In this document: positions 15,452 to 39,839 of the stretch, in pieces | How the letters are laid out: every line of letters starts with the position of its first letter | How positions within the stretch are numbered: the stretch's first letter is position 1 | Source: Candidatus Krumholzibacteriota bacterium | GTDB lineage: Bacteria > Krumholzibacteriota > Krumholzibacteriia > LZORAL124-64-63 | DNA length: 48,276 nt | Reading direction: 5' to 3' | Assembly: GCA_024275485.1 (NCBI GenBank) | Contig: JAJRZA010000046.1 | Span: forward strand, 1 to 48,276 | Translations under genes and position numbers: made by a program | Notes under the pieces: model-generated | The model's database searches: none | Told to the model about the DNA's origin: nothing | Seen by the model: only the letters and a program-made list of their open reading frames with translations

Positions 15452-18400
15452 ATGAGCAGAATATTACGATACCTGCTGTTGCTGGCGGTCCTTGTGGGAT
15501 TGTCCGGTACGGCCATGGCAGACGTCACACCCGATGTGGAAGTCCGCCTCGTTTCTCCCTTTATTGCGGTGAACACAGGTGACACCTACGAAGGTCGCCT
15601 GGAAATTATCTGCCGCGAGGATGGGACCCTGTCCCAGTTCAACCTGGGCAGCAACGGCTGGACCGCCAGCCTCGATAGGTCTCCAGGGTCAACAGCAATG
15701 AAGGCCGGCGACCGCATGACGGTCGAGTTCACGGCTAGCGCCCTGGATCCCGAGCAACGCCTCGAATTCGCCTGTGACTTCAATGGTCACCCCATTCTCT
15801 TCGCCATGGATCTCTCCCAGGAGAACGTCCGCAACATGACCGAGGGCGCCCCGGTGAAGGCGGTCCCTGATTTCATGGATATCCCCGGCGACCCCAGCTG
15901 GGGCGAGACCGACAGGATCCTCGAGATTATCCCACCGACGGTAACCAGGGACGAATCGCGCCGCACCATCACCGTGCACGGCCGTTTCGGATGCACCCTG
16001 GACGGTGGCGGCTACCTGCCCGCCCATTCCATCACCGTGGAGATCTGGGACCAGGATTCCGGTGCCGACGACCTTATGGGCAGCGGCTCCACCAACTTCG
16101 ATGGTTACTACACCATCGATGTTAACAGCGCATCCGGCGATCTATTCAGTGATCCGGACATCTACGTCAAGTTCATCCTCGTCAACTCCCGTATGCGGGT
16201 CTACGAACCCTCCAGCGGCAACAACTATTCCTACGTCACCGGTGTGACCAACAACTACTCCGGCTCCAACCTTGACATGGGATCTCTCATTCCGGCCAAC
16301 CCGGATCTCCAACCCTCGGTGTTCCTGCACACCCAGGGTTCTCGCGCCTGGGTCCACGACTACCTGTTGAGCTACGATGTGCCGCAGGCCAGGGTCGAAT
16401 GGCCCTCTGCCGCCTGGCCCAACTGCAGTCCAAGTGGCCGCATCCAGATGCGCAACGACTTCAGCTGGCGCGACGGCGTCCTCTGGCACGAATACGGCCA
16501 TTGGTTCGACCACGAAATGGCCAGTTGGGAGCCCTGGGACTACTGCAATGGTGTGTGTGACAACTCATCCACCGATTGCGGACACTGTTTCTGGTGCCAG
16601 GAGAGCCAGACCATCGCCTGGCTTGAGGGCTGGGCTCAATTCCATGGCTACGCCGTGGGTGCCTGGACCCCGGGCTACTACGGCAGCACGCCGCTGTCGG
16701 CGATCAACGCCGAAAACCTCGGTTCTTGCGGAGGCTCGTGGGATGTGCCCCTGCTCACCGAAGGCTTCATCGCGGCGTTGACCCAGGATATCGCCGACGG
16801 CAACCAGGACAGCCACGGTGTCTATGGCAGTTACACCGATGCCCTGTCTACCGGTGTGAGCACAGTCTTCGCCGTCAATGCCCTGGACAATCCCACCGGG
16901 AGCCAGGATTTCGCCAACAAGTTTGTGGCGCGGTATCCGGGTCATCGGGAGAATTTCTGGGAGACCGCCGCAAATTGCGGCTTCTGGTTCGACACGACGG
17001 CACCGGGCGTGGTCTCCTCGCTGACTTCAACCAGCCACTCCGCCGGGGTTCCTTCGCCGGATCCCACGGTCTCGTTCACCTGGAACCGAGCAACGGACAA
17101 CTACTCGGGCATCCAGGGTTATGGACTGAGCGTCACATCGGGTGGGCCGGCCAGGCCGTCGGCGGTGATGGATATCGGTGACGTGACCGGTTACACCACC
17201 GACCCCCTGAGCCCTGGCTCTTACTACTTCAACATTCGCGCGGTGGACAACGCCGGCTACTGGAGCAGCAGTTATCGGTATTGGGGACCCATCGTGATCC
17301 GCGATCCCGATCCCGCCGACCTTACCAGTTATCTGGCCACCGGCTGGGATTACCCCCTGGTTCCACGCACCGCCAACGATACGAATACCGGCTACGCCCC
17401 GGTCCCGGCGACCCTGCCGGGGGATGCGGCATTGACCTACTGGAACATCTTCGGTCGGAACATAGGCGAGGCTGCCACGGGCAGTGGCTTTTGGGGCTGG
17501 TTGAACATCGACGGCGAGTATAACGGCGGCGCATTCTGGGGAGAGATAGGACCCGGAGGGCTCTACTACGGTCCCAACCGGGGTCCGGTCTACGTTCAGG
17601 CCGGCCGCCACGCGTTCACTTGTCGCCACGACGCTACCGATCTGGTCGCCGAAGTTGACGAGTTTAACAACAACTTTGGCCGGCAGTTCATCTGGACTGC
17701 AGCGACGGTGGCTGCAAACCAGCTTGCCCTGCGCGATAGCCCCCCTGTGAGTAACGGCGGCTGGGATGAAGTTACATCCGGAATCCTTTACTACAACTGC
17801 GACGGCCTGGCCATGCCCACGAGCGGAGGCTGGTGGCACGCCATGGCCGTGTGGGCAGATTCGGACGCCAACGACTACGACTGTCGTCTCCATGATACAT
17901 CCACCGGTGCGCAGGACGGTTTCGGCACGAGCCTTGCCTACAGCTACACCGGTGCCGGCTATCTGGATGCCGTGATCGTCAACCGCAACATATCCCCCGG
18001 AACATCCTGGGACGTGGGCGTTCTGTCCTTCTACGGCAGCGGCGACTACAAGGCTTATCACGCCAGCAGTCAGATCCTGGCCTTCGGTGACTCGGTCACC
18101 GTTGCCATGACCGCGAACCAGCCCATCTTACTGCGCGAGTTCTACCTCTCCAGTGACAACTTGGGCCCCGTGAGCGTGACCGTTAGCGGTGATCCCGCCG
18201 ACGGGCCTGTGCGGCTGGTGTTCTTAAACCGTGATTTTGACAAGGGCACCCTGATATCAGGCTCCCAGGTCGGCTCGTCCTGGACCGACGGCACCGGGTT
18301 TGCCCGGGTGTCGGCAACTCTTGATGGTAACCCCGGGGACATAGGCTGGTACGGCATCGCCGTGTACCGCAACCAGTCCGATGGCCTGGCCGCCCGCGAT

Positions 18401-19822
18401 GTGACCATCGAAATCTCCACCACTCCACCCGACCTTGCACCGTGGACCCCGCCCGGCTGGCACGCGGCCATCACTCCGCGACCAGCCCTGGATGGCTCGC
18501 CCACTTCGTGCCCGCAACCTGACACTCTCTACAGTGCGCCCGCAGGCACCTATCTCAACGTGGCCGCCACCAACCTGGGGCCCGTATCATCCATCCTGCC
18601 TACGCGGGTCTTCCGCGACGATGTCTACCAGGGTTACATCAACTGGGGAAATGCTGGACCAGGAACGCAGGTTTCCTTCAACTGGACTGCTTTCTTCGCC
18701 TACAGTGCGGGACGCCACGTCCTGTCCTATCGTGTCGACGCTCTTGACCAAGTTGAGGAGACCAACGAGGGGAACAACATCCGCGGCGAGCAATGGATCT
18801 GGTCCCCGTACGTCTTGCCTCCTCCTATGGCGGTCAGTCGCCTGGCGCCTCCACCGAGCACCGCCGGTTGGAGTGACATCACCACCGGCGAGGTCTTCTG
18901 GTACAACTGCGACGGCCTGCGTCTCGTGGGAACAGGCGGTGGTTACTGGAAGGCCCTGGCCATCCTGCCCGCCGTCGGGTCCGACTTTGATCTCCGCCTG
19001 CATGAGCCAGGCGTGGGTGCCAAAAGCGGTTTTGCATCCTCGTTAGGTGGATCTTTCGAAGCGGGCACGACCACCGAGTACGTGCTCATCGACCAGAACA
19101 GCGTGTATTTCCAGGACTACGACGTAGGCGTTCTGCGCTGGAGCGGTGACGGCACCTACCGTGCACATTCCGCAGCGGCTAACTACTACGGCAACAGCCC
19201 CAGCGGCACTTGGGGTCCGTATGATATTCCGAGCGGCGGACTGATCATGATGTTTGAGTTCTACATGCCACCTCAGGTCTACGGAATCAGGTTGGAAAAT
19301 CTCTCCGGTTCTGATCTTGGCTTTGCCGTTCACCAGGCAGGTGTTGCCTACCAGAACCGCCTCTCCGCCGTGGGTGACGCAAATGAAAAGGGTCCGGGCC
19401 TTGACGAGGTTCTGGATCTCGAGGTTGTAGATTATGGCTACTATTGCATCGTTGTGTACCGGAACGACCAAGGAACGGGTCCCGCTCCCTTCCGGCTGGC
19501 AATCGGCAGTGGTCTTTCCCCTGTTGAGGACCAAAGGTTGCCGCAAGTGACGCAGCTCACTGGTGCCTTCCCCAACCCCTTCAACCCCCAGACCAAGGTG
19601 GCGTTCGACCTGGCTCGCGCCGATCACGCCCGTGTTTCAATCTACGACGTGCAGGGTCGACTGGTCCGGCGTCTTGTGGACGATACCCTTCCCGCCGGCA
19701 GTCATTCAGCCGTGTGGATGGGACGTGACGACAACGGTCGCGGCGTGGCCAGCGGCGTGTACTTCGCGCGGCTGGAGGCGTCCAGTGGCAACAGCATTAC
19801 CAAACTGGTTCTTGTGAAGTGA
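15452..19822 (+). CDS. large secreted HEXXH metalloprotease-like protein with duplicated CARDB units and FlgD-like C-terminal sorting domain
   Basis: A 1456-residue exported protein; GGAGG precedes the ATG and a signal peptide ends in SGTAMA. HEYGH at 346-350 is a zinc-metalloprotease motif; E392 in LEGWAQF is a candidate third ligand. A fibronectin-III-like domain follows (about 513-616). Then come two copies of a unit of about 371 residues beginning at D623 and D994, each with a CARDB-like beta domain (ending near DEFNNNFGRQFIW / ETNEGNNIRGEQWIW) and a second domain with the motif YNCDGL (C783 and C1153). The last 90 residues hold PNPFNPQT, an Ig-like FlgD domain and a terminal LVK, the C-terminal sorting type of FCB-group bacteria. 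It should act at the surface or outside the cell. Protease activity is inferred from the motif only. Confidence 0.85.
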   Translation: MSRILRYLLLLAVLVGLSGTAMADVTPDVEVRLVSPFIAVNTGDTYEGRLEIICREDGTLSQFNLGSNGWTASLDRSPGSTAMKAGDRMTVEFTASALDPEQRLEFACDFNGHPILFAMDLSQENVRNMTEGAPVKAVPDFMDIPGDPSWGETDRILEIIPPTVTRDESRRTITVHGRFGCTLDGGGYLPAHSITVEIWDQDSGADDLMGSGSTNFDGYYTIDVNSASGDLFSDPDIYVKFILVNSRMRVYEPSSGNNYSYVTGVTNNYSGSNLDMGSLIPANPDLQPSVFLHTQGSRAWVHDYLLSYDVPQARVEWPSAAWPNCSPSGRIQMRNDFSWRDGVLWHEYGHWFDHEMASWEPWDYCNGVCDNSSTDCGHCFWCQESQTIAWLEGWAQFHGYAVGAWTPGYYGSTPLSAINAENLGSCGGSWDVPLLTEGFIAALTQDIADGNQDSHGVYGSYTDALSTGVSTVFAVNALDNPTGSQDFANKFVARYPGHRENFWETAANCGFWFDTTAPGVVSSLTSTSHSAGVPSPDPTVSFTWNRATDNYSGIQGYGLSVTSGGPARPSAVMDIGDVTGYTTDPLSPGSYYFNIRAVDNAGYWSSSYRYWGPIVIRDPDPADLTSYLATGWDYPLVPRTANDTNTGYAPVPATLPGDAALTYWNIFGRNIGEAATGSGFWGWLNIDGEYNGGAFWGEIGPGGLYYGPNRGPVYVQAGRHAFTCRHDATDLVAEVDEFNNNFGRQFIWTAATVAANQLALRDSPPVSNGGWDEVTSGILYYNCDGLAMPTSGGWWHAMAVWADSDANDYDCRLHDTSTGAQDGFGTSLAYSYTGAGYLDAVIVNRNISPGTSWDVGVLSFYGSGDYKAYHASSQILAFGDSVTVAMTANQPILLREFYLSSDNLGPVSVTVSGDPADGPVRLVFLNRDFDKGTLISGSQVGSSWTDGTGFARVSATLDGNPGDIGWYGIAVYRNQSDGLAARDVTIEISTTPPDLAPWTPPGWHAAITPRPALDGSPTSCPQPDTLYSAPAGTYLNVAATNLGPVSSILPTRVFRDDVYQGYINWGNAGPGTQVSFNWTAFFAYSAGRHVLSYRVDALDQVEETNEGNNIRGEQWIWSPYVLPPPMAVSRLAPPPSTAGWSDITTGEVFWYNCDGLRLVGTGGGYWKALAILPAVGSDFDLRLHEPGVGAKSGFASSLGGSFEAGTTTEYVLIDQNSVYFQDYDVGVLRWSGDGTYRAHSAAANYYGNSPSGTWGPYDIPSGGLIMMFEFYMPPQVYGIRLENLSGSDLGFAVHQAGVAYQNRLSAVGDANEKGPGLDEVLDLEVVDYGYYCIVVYRNDQGTGPAPFRLAIGSGLSPVEDQRLPQVTQLTGAFPNPFNPQTKVAFDLARADHARVSIYDVQGRLVRRLVDDTLPAGSHSAVWMGRDDNGRGVASGVYFARLEASSGNSITKLVLVK

Positions 19823-33939: not shown

Positions 33940-34905
33940 ATGAAAAACAATCTCGTCGGAAAGGCTGGTTTTAAAGGCCTGATGACAGCAGGCTTGGTGT
34001 CTCTGGTGGCCATGGTAATCATGGTGCAACCAGTCATGGCCCAAAGCCTGGAAGAGCTGCTGGAGCAGGTTGGCGAAGATTACGCCATCAGCTATTCATC
34101 ACCATTTCTGTATGCCTTCGGGCCGAACCAGAACGCCGGCATGTACCAGACGGCCCACATCCCCTGGGGTGGAATCACCTTAGGGCTCGGCATCAAGGTC
34201 ATGGCGACTCACCTGAACTCGTCGGACCAGACCTTCTCGAAAAATATCGAAAACGTGGATTTGGGAGACTACGACCCCAACTACGCGGGTGAAGTCGGCA
34301 ATATTGTCATGAGTGGGCCCACTATTTTTGGCGATACCGAAACCAATGGTACGGTGACCGGCTATCTGCATGGCATTCCCGTCTTCCAACAGGAAACAAT
34401 CCCCGGTTTGATCGAGACCAACTTTGTTCCCCTGGCCACTCCGGAAGCCTACATCGGCGGAATTTTTGGTTTGAAGGCAACCCTTCGCTATTTTCCCGAA
34501 ATTGATATGAGCGACTATGGCAAAACCGAGTATCTGGGTTACGGTTTGCAGTGGAGTCCCAATGGGGTTCTGCCCGGCATTCCTTTTGATGTGATGGTCG
34601 GTTTCTTTACCCAGGAATTGAAGGTTGGAAGCTTGCTGGAGACCAGCGCCGATACCTACTTCGTGGGTGCCAGCCATGACTTCAGCCTCTTGCGTATTTA
34701 TGGTGGTTTGGCCAAGGACAAGTCGGACATGAAAGTTGCCTACCAGATCGAAGGCGACGGGCCAGATGTCACTTTTTCCATTGATGGCCGGCAGAAACAA
34801 CACATGACCATTGGTGTAGCCCTGAACTTCCTTCTGGGCCTGAATGCAGAAATAAACATGGGCGATATGACCACTTACAGTGCTGGTCTGATGCTCGGCT
34901 TCTAG
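33940..34905 (+). CDS. DUF6588-like exported barrel protein
   Basis: A 321-residue exported protein; GGGAGTGG precedes the ATG. The signal peptide ends in QPVMA. The mature part begins LEELLEQVGEDYAISYSSPFLYAFGPNQNAGMYQTAHIP and later has RYFPEIDMSDYGKTEYLGYGLQWSPNG, which is the pattern of DUF6588-family proteins of FCB bacteria; it ends with AGLMLGF, like an outer-membrane strand. The function is unknown. It is followed 29 bases later by a lipoprotein gene in the same direction, and the two likely share the terminator at 35647. Confidence 0.75.
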   Translation: MKNNLVGKAGFKGLMTAGLVSLVAMVIMVQPVMAQSLEELLEQVGEDYAISYSSPFLYAFGPNQNAGMYQTAHIPWGGITLGLGIKVMATHLNSSDQTFSKNIENVDLGDYDPNYAGEVGNIVMSGPTIFGDTETNGTVTGYLHGIPVFQQETIPGLIETNFVPLATPEAYIGGIFGLKATLRYFPEIDMSDYGKTEYLGYGLQWSPNGVLPGIPFDVMVGFFTQELKVGSLLETSADTYFVGASHDFSLLRIYGGLAKDKSDMKVAYQIEGDGPDVTFSIDGRQKQHMTIGVALNFLLGLNAEINMGDMTTYSAGLMLGF

Positions 34906-34934
34906 TAAATCGGAAAAAACGAAAGGATTACGTC

Positions 34935-35621
34935 ATGAAGATCAACAAAACAATCTACTTGCTGACAGCATTGACCTTGATGCTGGGAGCAGGCCTGTGG
35001 CTGACCGGTTGCGAAAGTGATACGGTGGCCCCCCACGATAATTTGCCGGAGCTGACGCCCGAGGATGTGGCCTATCAGGCAGGAGCCCTGGCAACGGCCT
35101 CCGGTCGTTTCCTGCCCCAACTGGTGGAGTTCTCGGGTACCGATAAAACCGAGTATACCTACACGTTTCCCGCCCAGGGTAGCGATGTAACGGGAACCGT
35201 TCATTTCGATTTCCGCCTTGGTGGAGCCGACGGTAGCAGCGCCGATTTTGACGCAGCCGACTGGGGCCACATGTACACCGGCATCGATTCTCCTCTTTCT
35301 TTTGCCGTTGGCGCCGGTGGCAATGTGGAATTGAAATTCAGCATCCTTGCCGATATCGTCCAGGCAACCCAAACCGCCACCTTACTGGAGGGAAGTGCCG
35401 GAACTTTTGTGGGGGGTGACTATTTGGCGGTCTTTTCTTTCGATGGTGTGGTCATCACCGCTGGGGAAGGCTATCCTTCGGCTGGAATCATCACTTTCAT
35501 CAGTAGCGGACATGTGCTGGTTGTAACCTTCGACGGTGACGAAACCGCCACCATCTCCCTGGACGACGTTCCAACCTGGATCGTCAATCTAAACAGTGGA
35601 GTCCTTGTTGAGGTGAGTTAG
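34935..35621 (+). CDS. lipoprotein of unknown function
   Basis: A 228-residue protein with a lipoprotein signal: LTGC with C26 as the lipidated cysteine. AAAGGA precedes the ATG. After a short linker the sequence is beta-rich (EYTYTFPAQGSDVTGTVHFDFRLGG, IVNLNSGVLVEV) without recognised motifs. It is co-transcribed with the DUF6588-like barrel gene, so it may be an accessory of that protein at the outer membrane. Confidence 0.75.
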   Translation: MKINKTIYLLTALTLMLGAGLWLTGCESDTVAPHDNLPELTPEDVAYQAGALATASGRFLPQLVEFSGTDKTEYTYTFPAQGSDVTGTVHFDFRLGGADGSSADFDAADWGHMYTGIDSPLSFAVGAGGNVELKFSILADIVQATQTATLLEGSAGTFVGGDYLAVFSFDGVVITAGEGYPSAGIITFISSGHVLVVTFDGDETATISLDDVPTWIVNLNSGVLVEVS

Positions 35622-36027: not shown

Positions 36028-37767
36028 TTAATTCAATTTCCCGGTGATGACGGATTTACCACATCTGATTCCCTCAAACTCCACCATAAAGTCGCCTTTT
36101 CCCTGCACAAACCACTGAACTTCGCGGATTCCGAAGGCGCTGATGTAAGTACCGATTCGCCAGGGTCGATGTTCCACGGCATCAACTTCATCAAAAAATT
36201 CATTCTTCAGCACACCGCCGGACAGCACGGTGAGATTGTCCCCTTCAAGGGTGAACAAATCCTCCCGAACCAATTTTTTCTCCCTGGCTCTGGTCGATAA
36301 GGTTGGCAGCGCTCCGCTGTTGATGGCCCTGGCGCGCACCCTGAAAACATTCCCGCCCAGACCCTTTACCTCGATGATTTCAACTTCAACCCTGGGCAAC
36401 TGGCTGGCCGTCCAAATCACAAACATGGCGTTGCGGTGCAGCATATCCGGCAGCATCCAACCGGGGCTGCTGCGCACGCTGAATTCCCGCCAGCCGCCAA
36501 TCTCAATCTCACCATAAGTGGGATGATCGAAGGGATGCCACTCGGTGAACATTTCTCCCATCATGAGGTGATCGTTGAATTTTTGTCGTTCCACTAATTT
36601 GGGCCGACGCGACCACAGATTCCCGTCCTTGCCGTTGGTCTCTTCGCGATAGCCGCGGTAGGCCGCCTGGGCGCTCATGTACAGCTCACCCACGTAGGCG
36701 TAGGAGCCGAAGATCTGGTACAGGAACTCATCGAAATCACCATAGGTGGTGTAAAGGTCGCTCATGCTGACGAGGTAACGATAGCCGGGAACCGTGCGTT
36801 CGCCTTCGCGTCCGAGGTAGTCGAAGACGGCCAGGTCGGCATCCGGCAGGGGCGGCGATAGTTTGCTGCCCGGACCCCTCAGGAACATGCCGCCGTAGTT
36901 GTGAAAAGCGAATCCGAAGGCAATATTCTGGTGCTGCAAAAGGAAGTCGCCCACGGCTCGCGTATTGGTGGCGCTAAAGGGGAAATCACCACTGCCGCCC
37001 TGCACAAACCGCGGCTGCCACTGGTATCCCCAGTTGCGGTTCATGTCCAGATAGCCGGCCCCGTCTTCATTGATTCTGCCATCGCCATCGTCATCAATAC
37101 CTTCCAGATACAGGCGGGTCCATTCACCCTTTTCACCCGGTTTGATGCGCACCATCACCCGGGGATCGTCGGGATGGGATTTCCATCGGCCGTGAGGATC
37201 GCGAATGCGCATTTGCAGGATGCGTCCATCGCCGTCCAGGTCGTTGGGAGGGTCTTCATCGAACAGACCGTCCCCGTCGTCGTCGTAGGGTATGCGGGCT
37301 GAACGCCCGAGGTTGTAGCTGTTTGGATCGGTGAAGAAACGGGCACGGCTGTCCACATTCACGGTGGGGATGATGTAGAAGGAGGCGAGATCCAGCAACT
37401 CCGTGATGCGATCCCATTGGCCGTATTTGGTCAGCAGGGTCCAGGCCGTATACAGGCAAACCTCCGTAGCCTGGATTTCGTTGCCGTGGATGGCGCCGTC
37501 CACGTACATGGCAGGTTTGGTTTCGGCTTTCCCGGTTATTTCGTTGGTCACGGTCAAGCACCAGATGTCTCGGCCTTCGGCGCTTTTTCCCAGAGACTCC
37601 AATTCGGTAAGATCGGGCCAGGCTTTGTGCATTTCTTTCAGGGCCTTGGTGACCATGTCCTGGTCATAATAATGGTCCCAGGTCAGGTCCGGCTGGTCGG
37701 CCAGACTGTGGCTCGAAAGACAACTCAACAGGGTCAAAACGACAATCAACACACCCAGGTTTTTCAT
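36028..37767 (-). CDS. M14-family zinc carboxypeptidase with calcium-loop insertions
   Basis: A 579-residue exported protein (signal peptide ending in SHSLA). All M14 residues are visible: zinc ligands H94 and E97 in HGNE, H289 in FHNYGG, substrate-binding NVD/R (139-141) and NRNW (243-246), and E361 (VGELY) as likely catalytic glutamate. Between the ligands are EF-hand-like loops DDDGDGLFDED, DLDGDGR (161-182) and DDDGDGRINEDG (225-236) that should bind calcium. The C-terminal 130 residues form an extra beta domain. It should trim peptides in the periplasm or outside. Its ATG overlaps the stop of the upstream paralogue (TAATG), so the two are translated together. Confidence 0.92.
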   Translation of the reverse strand: MKNLGVLIVVLTLLSCLSSHSLADQPDLTWDHYYDQDMVTKALKEMHKAWPDLTELESLGKSAEGRDIWCLTVTNEITGKAETKPAMYVDGAIHGNEIQATEVCLYTAWTLLTKYGQWDRITELLDLASFYIIPTVNVDSRARFFTDPNSYNLGRSARIPYDDDGDGLFDEDPPNDLDGDGRILQMRIRDPHGRWKSHPDDPRVMVRIKPGEKGEWTRLYLEGIDDDGDGRINEDGAGYLDMNRNWGYQWQPRFVQGGSGDFPFSATNTRAVGDFLLQHQNIAFGFAFHNYGGMFLRGPGSKLSPPLPDADLAVFDYLGREGERTVPGYRYLVSMSDLYTTYGDFDEFLYQIFGSYAYVGELYMSAQAAYRGYREETNGKDGNLWSRRPKLVERQKFNDHLMMGEMFTEWHPFDHPTYGEIEIGGWREFSVRSSPGWMLPDMLHRNAMFVIWTASQLPRVEVEIIEVKGLGGNVFRVRARAINSGALPTLSTRAREKKLVREDLFTLEGDNLTVLSGGVLKNEFFDEVDAVEHRPWRIGTYISAFGIREVQWFVQGKGDFMVEFEGIRCGKSVITGKLN

Positions 37768-39656
37768 TATCGACCTTCCTTGGCGGCGACCGTCAATTGT
37801 TTGGTGATTTTACCCAGCGAGGGTGCTTCGGCGGTAATGTTGATTTCATTGCCGACGGCAACTCGTACCAACCAGCGAACTTTAACGCTGCCGTGGGCAG
37901 GCAGCTGATCCACAATGGTGCGGGCACGGCCTTCAAGAATTTCCGCGCCCTCGATATTCACCACCAGGGGGGGAACCCTCGAGGTGCGCAATCCTTGGCC
38001 AATGGGGTAGGGAATCGGGCCATCGTTGTTCAACCAAACCGTCAATTCATACACATCGGTGCCCCGGGAAGCTAAATTGACCTGGCCAAAATGCATCACC
38101 GGCAACCAGGAGGGCAAGGTCGAAAGAAATTGAACCGGGGTGGCCAGAAGCGAGTCCACCAGGGCTGCCGGAGGAGTTGTAGCGGCGAAAGGGGCTTCTC
38201 CGCCAACCAGAACCGTTTCTCCGGACGGGAGCTGGGTCTTTTGCCAGGTGAGCAGTCCGGCCCAATCACCGAGCTGATGGTTGTTGCTCGTTTGTTCCGT
38301 GTACTGCAACAGGGCTTCTTGTTTGTCGGAGATGGCGTCTTGGCCCTCGTCGTCAGCGTTGGATTCCGGATCACTTGATTGGTCAGGATTGTTCTCAGGG
38401 TTTTCATCCGATGTGGTTGAGTCCTCGTCAGCCACCTTGGGTAGGGACCAAAAATCCAAGGCAAAAGAAGGTACGCCGAATTGAAAATATCCCCATTCTT
38501 CAGCCGACCCGACGGATGATTTTGGCGAAGGCAGGCGCTCGCCGGTCAAGCCGCTTTCTTCGAGGAGTTCCAGGTATTGTTTGCTGATGGCTGACCACCA
38601 GGCGTGATCGGCGGGATCCATTTTGGTGGCCGGGTCTTCTTCCAGAAGGCCCAGGACTTGACCGTAGGTGAGCTTGTAAAACCCGTAGTTCTCGCGGAGC
38701 ACCGTTTTGAGTTGATCCAAAGTCAGGCTCTGTCCAGCCTTGATATTCCATTCTTCAGCCCGGCTGTCGGGGACGGTGTATTTTCCGTCTTTCCCCCTCT
38801 CTTCCACATCGGGCATCTGGCGCAGGTTGTTGACCTGGTCCAGAACCAGGACCATGGCAATTTGCGGATGGCTGAAGGCAAATTCCAAAATGTCCCTGGT
38901 CTCGGGCTGGTCGGCGGCCCAGTGGCCTCCTTCGTTGGTCCAGTGTTCAAATCGGTGGGGAAAGTTGCGGCCGGGATTCACGCCGCCTGGACCGTCTTCG
39001 TTGAACAGGCCGTCGCGGTCGTTGTCGTGGCCTTCGGTTTTCCTGCTGTAAAGACCTCGTTGGCCCCGGGCCGTTTCTGCTTTAACGGCCAGCAGGGGGT
39101 GTTCTTCACTGATGATCCATTGGCCGGCCGGATCGGGCACCAGCATGGTGGTGATCAGGCCGTCTCCATTCAAATCTTCAGTCGGGTCCTCCGAAAAAGA
39201 TCCGTCCCGATCTTCATCCACCGCGGTTCCGTTGAGGCCACCCGATTGCTGCACTTTGCCAAAAAAGGACGCCACTCCATCGGGATTGGCCATGGGGATG
39301 ATATGCCAGCGCACGGTTTCCGCCGGGCTGGAACCTTCGGCATTGAGAATCTCACCAATCAGTTTCAGGGCTGCTTCGGTCCCCAACGGAGCCATTCCGC
39401 TCAGGTTGCCAATGACCAAAACGGCGGGCCGGTCGTGGGATTCTACCGGATGAATGGTCAGCATTTGAAGTTTGGTTCCGGAGGGAGATTGGCCAATGCT
39501 TTCCAGGGCGGTGCGCTTGTTCTTGCTAAAGCCCTTGAGACGTTGTTCAACATCCTTGGCCGAGTGCCACCGGTAGCCGGTGTCTGCTTGAGCGGTCAGG
39601 GGTGAAATCATGAGCATCAGAAGAACATACAAAACCGGGAATTTCCGGAGAACCAT
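37767..39656 (-). CDS. M14-like pseudopeptidase (zinc ligands lost)
   Basis: A 629-residue exported protein from the ATG at 39656 (GAGGTG upstream; a TTG at 39668 is less likely). It aligns with the neighbouring carboxypeptidase (PAVLVIGNLSGMAPLGTE versus PAMYVDGAIHGNEIQATE): the HxxE ligands are S86 and A89, and the third ligand histidine is an aspartate (LVLDQV). The calcium loops are retained (DEDRDGSFSEDP, DLNGDGL, DNDRDGLFNEDG). An acidic low-complexity linker (about 425-465) and a C-terminal beta domain follow. It cannot bind zinc in the normal way, so a binding or regulatory role is likely. It is first in the two-gene operon. Confidence 0.85.
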   Translation of the reverse strand: MVLRKFPVLYVLLMLMISPLTAQADTGYRWHSAKDVEQRLKGFSKNKRTALESIGQSPSGTKLQMLTIHPVESHDRPAVLVIGNLSGMAPLGTEAALKLIGEILNAEGSSPAETVRWHIIPMANPDGVASFFGKVQQSGGLNGTAVDEDRDGSFSEDPTEDLNGDGLITTMLVPDPAGQWIISEEHPLLAVKAETARGQRGLYSRKTEGHDNDRDGLFNEDGPGGVNPGRNFPHRFEHWTNEGGHWAADQPETRDILEFAFSHPQIAMVLVLDQVNNLRQMPDVEERGKDGKYTVPDSRAEEWNIKAGQSLTLDQLKTVLRENYGFYKLTYGQVLGLLEEDPATKMDPADHAWWSAISKQYLELLEESGLTGERLPSPKSSVGSAEEWGYFQFGVPSFALDFWSLPKVADEDSTTSDENPENNPDQSSDPESNADDEGQDAISDKQEALLQYTEQTSNNHQLGDWAGLLTWQKTQLPSGETVLVGGEAPFAATTPPAALVDSLLATPVQFLSTLPSWLPVMHFGQVNLASRGTDVYELTVWLNNDGPIPYPIGQGLRTSRVPPLVVNIEGAEILEGRARTIVDQLPAHGSVKVRWLVRVAVGNEINITAEAPSLGKITKQLTVAAKEGR

Positions 39657-39809: not shown

Positions 39810-39839
39810 GAAGAGGCCGGTTTGGCATCCGGCCTCTTC
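39810..39839 (-). terminator. terminator of the chemoreceptor operon
   Basis: An 11-pair perfect stem (GAAGAGGCCGG at 39810-39820 with CCGGCCTCTTC at 39829-39839) and an 8-base loop lie 55 bases after the chemoreceptor stop; on the minus strand it is followed by GTTTG. The T run is short. Confidence 0.6.

Follow-up and report, generated by a model that had tools for sequence, protein, structure and literature searches.

In a metagenome-assembled genome (MAG) of 3.98 Mb from the class Krumholzibacteriia (Candidatus Krumholzibacteriota bacterium, assembly GCA_024275485.1), which belongs to a poorly known phylum of uncultured bacteria, the gene of an M14 zinc carboxypeptidase overlaps with the gene of a homologue whose zinc site has been erased. 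The window analysed here is one stretch of contig JAJRZA010000046.1 (positions 1 to 48,276; 48,276 nucleotides), and we refer to the two genes and their products as dead and live, according to the state of the zinc site. A partnership of both proteins is strongly implied, and it is the overlap together with the strict co-occurrence in other genomes that argues for it. We consider it rather probable that the live carboxypeptidase has its non-catalytic paralogue as an obligate subunit or partner in a two-gene secreted-peptidase unit. The pair is organized as follows:

37767..39656, minus strand: first cistron, zinc-dead M14 homologue of 629 amino acids with a signal-peptide-like N-terminus (MVLRKFPVLYVLLMLMISPLTAQA)
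36028..37767, minus strand: second cistron, M14 zinc carboxypeptidase of 579 amino acids with an intact active site and a signal-peptide-like N-terminus
37765..37769, minus strand: TAATG stop/start overlap of the dead and the live gene
37774..37781, minus strand: Shine-Dalgarno-like AAGGAAGG of the live gene, located within the final codons of the dead one

A first-pass annotation, made from the letters of the window, had proposed a translationally coupled M14 pair at 36028-39656, and this was borne out: both open reading frames are intact on the minus strand at exactly these positions and both products score above the M14 cut-off. The TAATG at 37769-37765 was also found as proposed, and from the stop/start overlap translational coupling of the two genes is probable. 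The same annotation had called the dead protein the second of the pair, which is true for ascending coordinates only, as the dead gene is in fact the upstream, promoter-proximal cistron. Read from their sequences, the N-termini of both proteins look like signal peptides.

Membership in the M14 family was assessed with profile and structure searches. Pfam matches of both proteins were confined to M14, with 135 bits (E 5e-39) for the live and 57.8 bits (E 2e-15) for the dead protein against Peptidase_M14 (PF00246; cut-off 21.6), and in the same profile search neither qualified as M16B, for which an HxxEH motif together with an M16 domain was looked for. Carboxypeptidase T was the best sequence match of the live protein in the PDB, with zinc and catalytic residues aligned; the matches of the dead protein to M14 structures were weak at the sequence level. 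A model of the dead protein, based on an alignment of 16 rows (mean predicted local distance difference test score (pLDDT) of 72.9), retrieved M14 enzymes in Foldseek, the best being carboxypeptidase D domain II (E 1e-9), at template modelling scores (TM-scores) of at most 0.57 by target length, which are modest because of inserts and uncertain loops. The structure match supports a place of the dead protein in the M14 fold class and nothing beyond that. The single-chain model of the live protein was poor (mean pLDDT 52.6) and was left out of the fold search. When the two proteins were compared with hhalign, the M14 parts gave 99.9 % and the C-terminal beta-rich domains, which are homologous as well, 98.8 % (E 1e-16). 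Dead and live were shown to be paralogues over their full length, with an M14 domain carrying a triple acidic-loop insert and a common C-terminal domain:

37770..38279, minus strand: C-terminal beta-rich domain of the dead protein, residues 460-629
36031..36570, minus strand: C-terminal beta-rich domain of the live protein, residues 400-579

Residue states were taken from an alignment that combined 16 dead with 14 live sequences, using the numbering of bovine carboxypeptidase A; counts for the dead protein refer to the 14 rows in which the respective site is visible. The positions that decide on catalysis are:

37477..37488, minus strand: HGNE of the live protein with the zinc ligands H69/E72 (H94 and E97), present in 14/14 orthologues
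36901..36903, minus strand: H289, third zinc ligand of the live protein (equivalent of H196), 14/14
36685..36687, minus strand: E361, general base of the live protein (equivalent of E270), 14/14
39390..39401, minus strand: SGMA (residues 86-89) of the dead protein in place of HxxE (H69/E72), varying in orthologues
38838..38840, minus strand: D273 of the dead protein in place of the third zinc ligand H196
38454..38456, minus strand: D401 of the dead protein at the position of the catalytic Glu270, Asp in 14/14 orthologues

All 14 live orthologues are invariant for H69, E72, H196, E270, N144, R145 and Y248 (here N243-R244 and Y339), and by its residues the live gene codes for a predicted active M14 metallocarboxypeptidase. 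The picture is different for the dead orthologues, not one of which has any of H69, E72 or H196 (0/14). Position 69 is occupied by Ser (5), Glu (4), Leu (4) or Gly (1), position 72 by Thr (5), Leu (4), Ala (2), Ser (2) or Cys (1) and position 144 by Gly (10) or Ala (4); Y248 is lost in 14/14 and the equivalent of R127 is lost as well, while R145 is retained in 13/14. The replacement of HGNE by SGMA, already recognized in the first-pass annotation, is therefore present in the window, and the exchange of the third ligand for Asp holds for D273 in the window protein. The latter is, however, no feature of the family, since position 196 holds Gly in nine and Asp in five of the orthologues. The invariant Asp of the dead family sits instead at position 270, a change that had been overlooked. 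Lacking the HxxE and His ligands together with Glu270, the dead gene is not expected to encode an active M14 metallocarboxypeptidase. Its product has the hallmarks of an M14 pseudopeptidase (fold kept, catalytic residues lost, under selection) and is predicted to be inactive.

D401 stays fixed as Asp while other active-site columns drift. Outside the acidic loops, the only other invariant His, Asp or Glu residues of the dead family are D126, H234 and, nearly so, D350. That the dead protein might have another metal site was considered and rejected, as the alignment contains no conserved His/Glu set.

Both proteins carry three acidic loops of the DxDxDG type in the insert between R127 and N144, with acidic residues at the calcium positions; the first-pass annotation had counted up to three in the dead protein. 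The loops and two further regions of the dead protein map as follows:

39186..39218, minus strand: loop 1 of the dead protein, DEDRDGSFSED, residues 147-157; D3, D5, E10 and D11 in 15/15 orthologues
39159..39176, minus strand: loop 2 of the dead protein, DLNGDG, residues 161-166; D1 and D5 in 15/15, D or N at position 3
38994..39026, minus strand: loop 3 of the dead protein, DNDRDGLFNED, residues 211-221; D1, D3, D5, N9, E10 and D11 in 14/14
37252..37284, minus strand: loop 1 of the live protein, DDDGDGLFDED, residues 162-172
37225..37242, minus strand: loop 2 of the live protein, DLDGDG, residues 176-181
37063..37095, minus strand: loop 3 of the live protein, DDDGDGRINED, residues 225-235
38556..38768, minus strand: helical insertion found only in the dead protein, residues ~297-367, after the third-ligand strand and before the Tyr248 loop
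38328..38438, minus strand: low-complexity, low-confidence linker of the dead protein, residues ~407-443

From their sequence the acidic loops presumably bind calcium. The varied ligand columns next to the near-invariant loop acids of the dead copies indicate that the zinc site, once lost, drifted, whereas the acidic loops were held. The helical insertion is ~55 residues longer than its live counterpart and contains the nearly invariant residues D350 and W354.

The distribution of the pair was analyzed in 80 Krumholzibacteriota genomes. The dead gene is present in 16 of them, namely in five of the six genomes of the window's genus, in four other genera of the same family and in a single genus from a second family. 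In 15 of the 16, the dead gene is accompanied by a close live orthologue (E < 1e-200); in the remaining genome (G032), the contig stops just past the visible start of the live gene. The reverse case, a close live orthologue without the dead gene, was found in none of the 80 genomes; among those lacking the dead gene, the best candidate reached 58.8 bits compared with at least 719 for orthologues. In the only genome of the window's genus without the pair (G005, 93 % complete), dead and live are absent together. All 16 genomes have the two genes adjacent in one unit with the dead gene as first cistron and with overlapping stop and start codons (13 ATGA, 2 TAATG and 1 TGATG), and a GGAGG-type ribosome site lies inside the final codons of the dead gene in the orthologues. 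The flanking genes are common within the genus, but mostly different between genera. With the same losses, loops and overlap recurring in 16 genomes, the pattern is far beyond chance. A scan of named genomes beyond the phylum, a shallow search, returned only two close relatives, both from Krumholzibacteriia, and in plasmid records the equally shallow search outside the phylum returned haloarchaeal single-gene relatives and no dead/live pair.

In a tree of M14 domains, the dead copies form one clade (support 100/100) and the live copies another (97/97), and the zinc site was for this reason most likely lost once, before the two families diverged. The common insert and C-terminal domain argue that, within M14 as a whole, the two clades are most closely related to one another, a point at which the tree has no resolution. 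For the closest unsaturated pair within the window's genus (dS 0.63), the ratio of nonsynonymous to synonymous substitution rates (dN/dS) was 0.19 for the dead and 0.09 for the live gene; over all pairs it ranged from 0.12 to 0.46 and from 0.07 to 0.52, respectively, which are rough values as many dS were saturated. Within the dead gene, the linker stands out with 0.67 against 0.12-0.17 elsewhere (0.12 for the acidic-loop part and 0.13 for the C-terminal domain). All 12 full-length dead copies are open and free of frameshifts. The dead gene is an old pseudoenzyme maintained by purifying selection.

How the two proteins might work together can be outlined from the gene order. Translation of the live enzyme would depend on ribosomes passing the end of the dead gene, so that the partner would be made first and close by. 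We infer that both chains would then be exported, that their acidic loops would bind Ca2+ and that the two chains would assemble. The dead chain, being made first, could serve as a scaffold or substrate-presenting subunit, in the way the alpha subunit of the mitochondrial processing peptidase (MPP) does for MPP-beta or domain III of carboxypeptidase D in cis; candidate contact surfaces of the dead chain would be its acidic-loop wall and the additional helical insertion, close to what was once the active-site funnel. A more specific version, an obligate calcium-scaffolded M14 heterodimer with a zinc-dead subunit that gates or presents the substrate, would be an independently evolved, in-trans bacterial counterpart of the M16 alpha/beta design, and we put it forward only tentatively, as a possibility that could well fail.

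Several observations weigh against the idea of an obligate partner. Operon conservation and coupling would also be compatible with a functional connection in which the proteins do not bind each other. The evolutionary rate of the dead gene is about twice that of the live one, which implies that much of the dead surface is not tightly constrained. Finally, relatives of the live enzyme in haloarchaea that share its architecture are encoded by single genes, which indicates that a partner is no intrinsic need of the fold.

Among the alternatives, an inhibitor or secretion chaperone fares best, although we regard it as unlikely. Here, the dead protein, made first, would cap the funnel of the live enzyme like a separate pro-domain or an immunity-like factor and would be released or removed outside the cell, perhaps once Ca2+ is at hand. 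Such a role would agree with the dead gene always being the first cistron, with the position of the extra helical insertion near the former funnel rim and with the N-termini: the M14 domain begins no more than ~50 residues from the start in both proteins, and judged from this position neither has a funnelin-type N-terminal pro-domain. But a capping segment would not require a full-length M14 fold with acidic loops and a C-terminal domain, all of which were kept. Similarity of the dead protein to known inhibitors of M14 enzymes was not seen, with no search aimed at it.

Slightly less plausible still is a dead protein that is secreted and stabilised by calcium, binds peptides or the wall and shares a pathway with the enzyme without touching it, comparable to the collagen-binding AEBP1/CPX proteins. 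The eukaryotic M14 pseudopeptidases reviewed in PMC11266112 provide precedents, R145, the anchor of the substrate carboxylate, is kept in nearly all dead copies next to the invariant D270, and the dead gene evolves faster than its partner. In contrast, strict overlap and co-occurrence, which hold for 16/16 genomes, speak for coupled synthesis, and the loss of the equivalents of N144, R127 and Y248 makes a normal pocket for C-terminal peptides unlikely in the dead protein.

An enzyme with a rearranged metal site is very improbable: H234 and D401 are invariant near the former site, but no conserved HxxE..H set is left and the old ligand columns hold varied residues. The decay of a duplicate heading for loss, to which the doubled dN/dS and the variable N-terminus and linker of the dead copies might be attributed, is refuted, because the relatives lack the ligands in their dead copies too (H69, E72 and H196 in 14/14 visible copies from the 16 genomes), no relative has them intact in both copies and frameshifts are missing; the open full-length frames, a dN/dS well below 1, the invariant acidic loops and losses ancestral to two families in a single clade all speak for a conserved pseudoenzyme, as the first-pass annotation had expected. 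The preferred explanation remains a live carboxypeptidase with a non-catalytic partner.

The surroundings of the pair contain further genes and signals:

39810..39839, minus strand: strong terminator-like hairpin of 11 pairs after the upstream chemotaxis gene
33940-35621, plus strand: DUF6588 protein and, after it, a small putative lipoprotein without Pfam match
15452-19822, plus strand: protein of 1456 amino acids with CARDB and FlgD-Ig domains and a C-terminus resembling a Por secretion tail (tail below the Pfam cut-off)
4603-26075: nickel-dependent hydrogenase large subunit, the maturation genes hypD and hypF and a sensor kinase on the same contig

As the terminator-like hairpin ends the chemotaxis gene, dead and live are probably a transcription unit of their own. 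Several other genera have homologues of the DUF6588 protein, the small lipoprotein or both in the vicinity of the pair, to which they may be functionally linked. The C-terminus of the 1456-amino-acid protein suggests type IX-like sorting signals in the phylum.

Of the single-gene relatives, carboxypeptidase T from Thermoactinomyces is, like the live protein, a secreted bacterial M14 enzyme, but its aligned sequence has neither the insert with three DxDxDG loops that separates R127 from N144-R145 nor the C-terminal domain. The Halomontanus rarus proteins WP_276256041 (94 % coverage of the live protein, 27.7 % identity) and WP_276256068 share the two-domain layout with intact zinc ligands. They differ in that no dead partner adjoins them, no signal peptide was seen and loops 1 and 3 are missing; in both genes (L089 4977-6608 and L090 3974-5632 in our numbering) only the middle DxDGDG loop, loop 2, is kept. 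Given this single haloarchaeal loop, the triple acidic loop may be an adaptation to secretion or to calcium.

The M14 cases in a review of metallopeptidase pseudoenzymes comprise four vertebrate proteins and one from a fungus (PMC11266112). AEBP1/ACLP, CPXM1, CPXM2 and Ecm14 resemble the dead protein as M14 folds without detected activity that are mostly secreted, but they are eukaryotic and most have kept two or three zinc ligands; an adjoining or coupled live paralogue is not described for them there (PMC11266112). In our literature search we found no prokaryotic M14 pseudopeptidase and no live/dead M14 pair, which is weak evidence as most subscription journals and preprints lay outside its coverage. 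In the literature covered, the relation of an M14 pseudopeptidase to live relatives is described in cis only, for carboxypeptidase D, and the M14 cases are eukaryotic.

Domain III of carboxypeptidase D (CPD-III) is also a dead M14 unit beside live ones that has lost nearly all active-site residues. With H69, A72, D196, Q127, T145 and Y270 (PMC11266112), it has the exchanges Glu72 to Ala and His196 to Asp in common with the window protein (S69, A72, D196, D270), and its presumed role is that of presenting substrate to its live neighbours (PMC11266112). CPD-III acts in cis within one animal membrane protein with transthyretin-like domains, whereas the dead protein of the window is encoded by a separate bacterial gene, has the triple acidic-loop insert and R145, and carries Asp at position 270.

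In M16B, a dead subunit is needed for function in TTHA1264/TTHA1265, SPH2681/SPH2682 and AlbF/AlbE as well as in the mitochondrial processing peptidase (PMC12731061, PMC11266112). The prokaryotic pairs among these match the Krumholzibacteriota pair in gene arrangement, in that a gene whose product has the zinc motif adjoins one for a homologue that lacks this motif. Fold and motif are unrelated, as M16B proteins are HxxEH clamshell endopeptidases, and the heterodimer is crystallographic in M16B, while the pairing described here is at gene level. Taken together, pseudoenzyme pairing is already known, but its form here, an M14 unit of two bacterial genes in which the acidic loops are frozen, seems to be new. 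It bears on the question of whether M14, like M16, gave rise to a pairing of enzyme and pseudoenzyme of its own. With its zinc site erased and its calcium loops frozen, the dead protein is a natural case in which catalysis and scaffold are separated with unusual clarity, and a small, secreted two-gene version from bacteria would make it possible to test directly what a live peptidase domain gains from a dead one.

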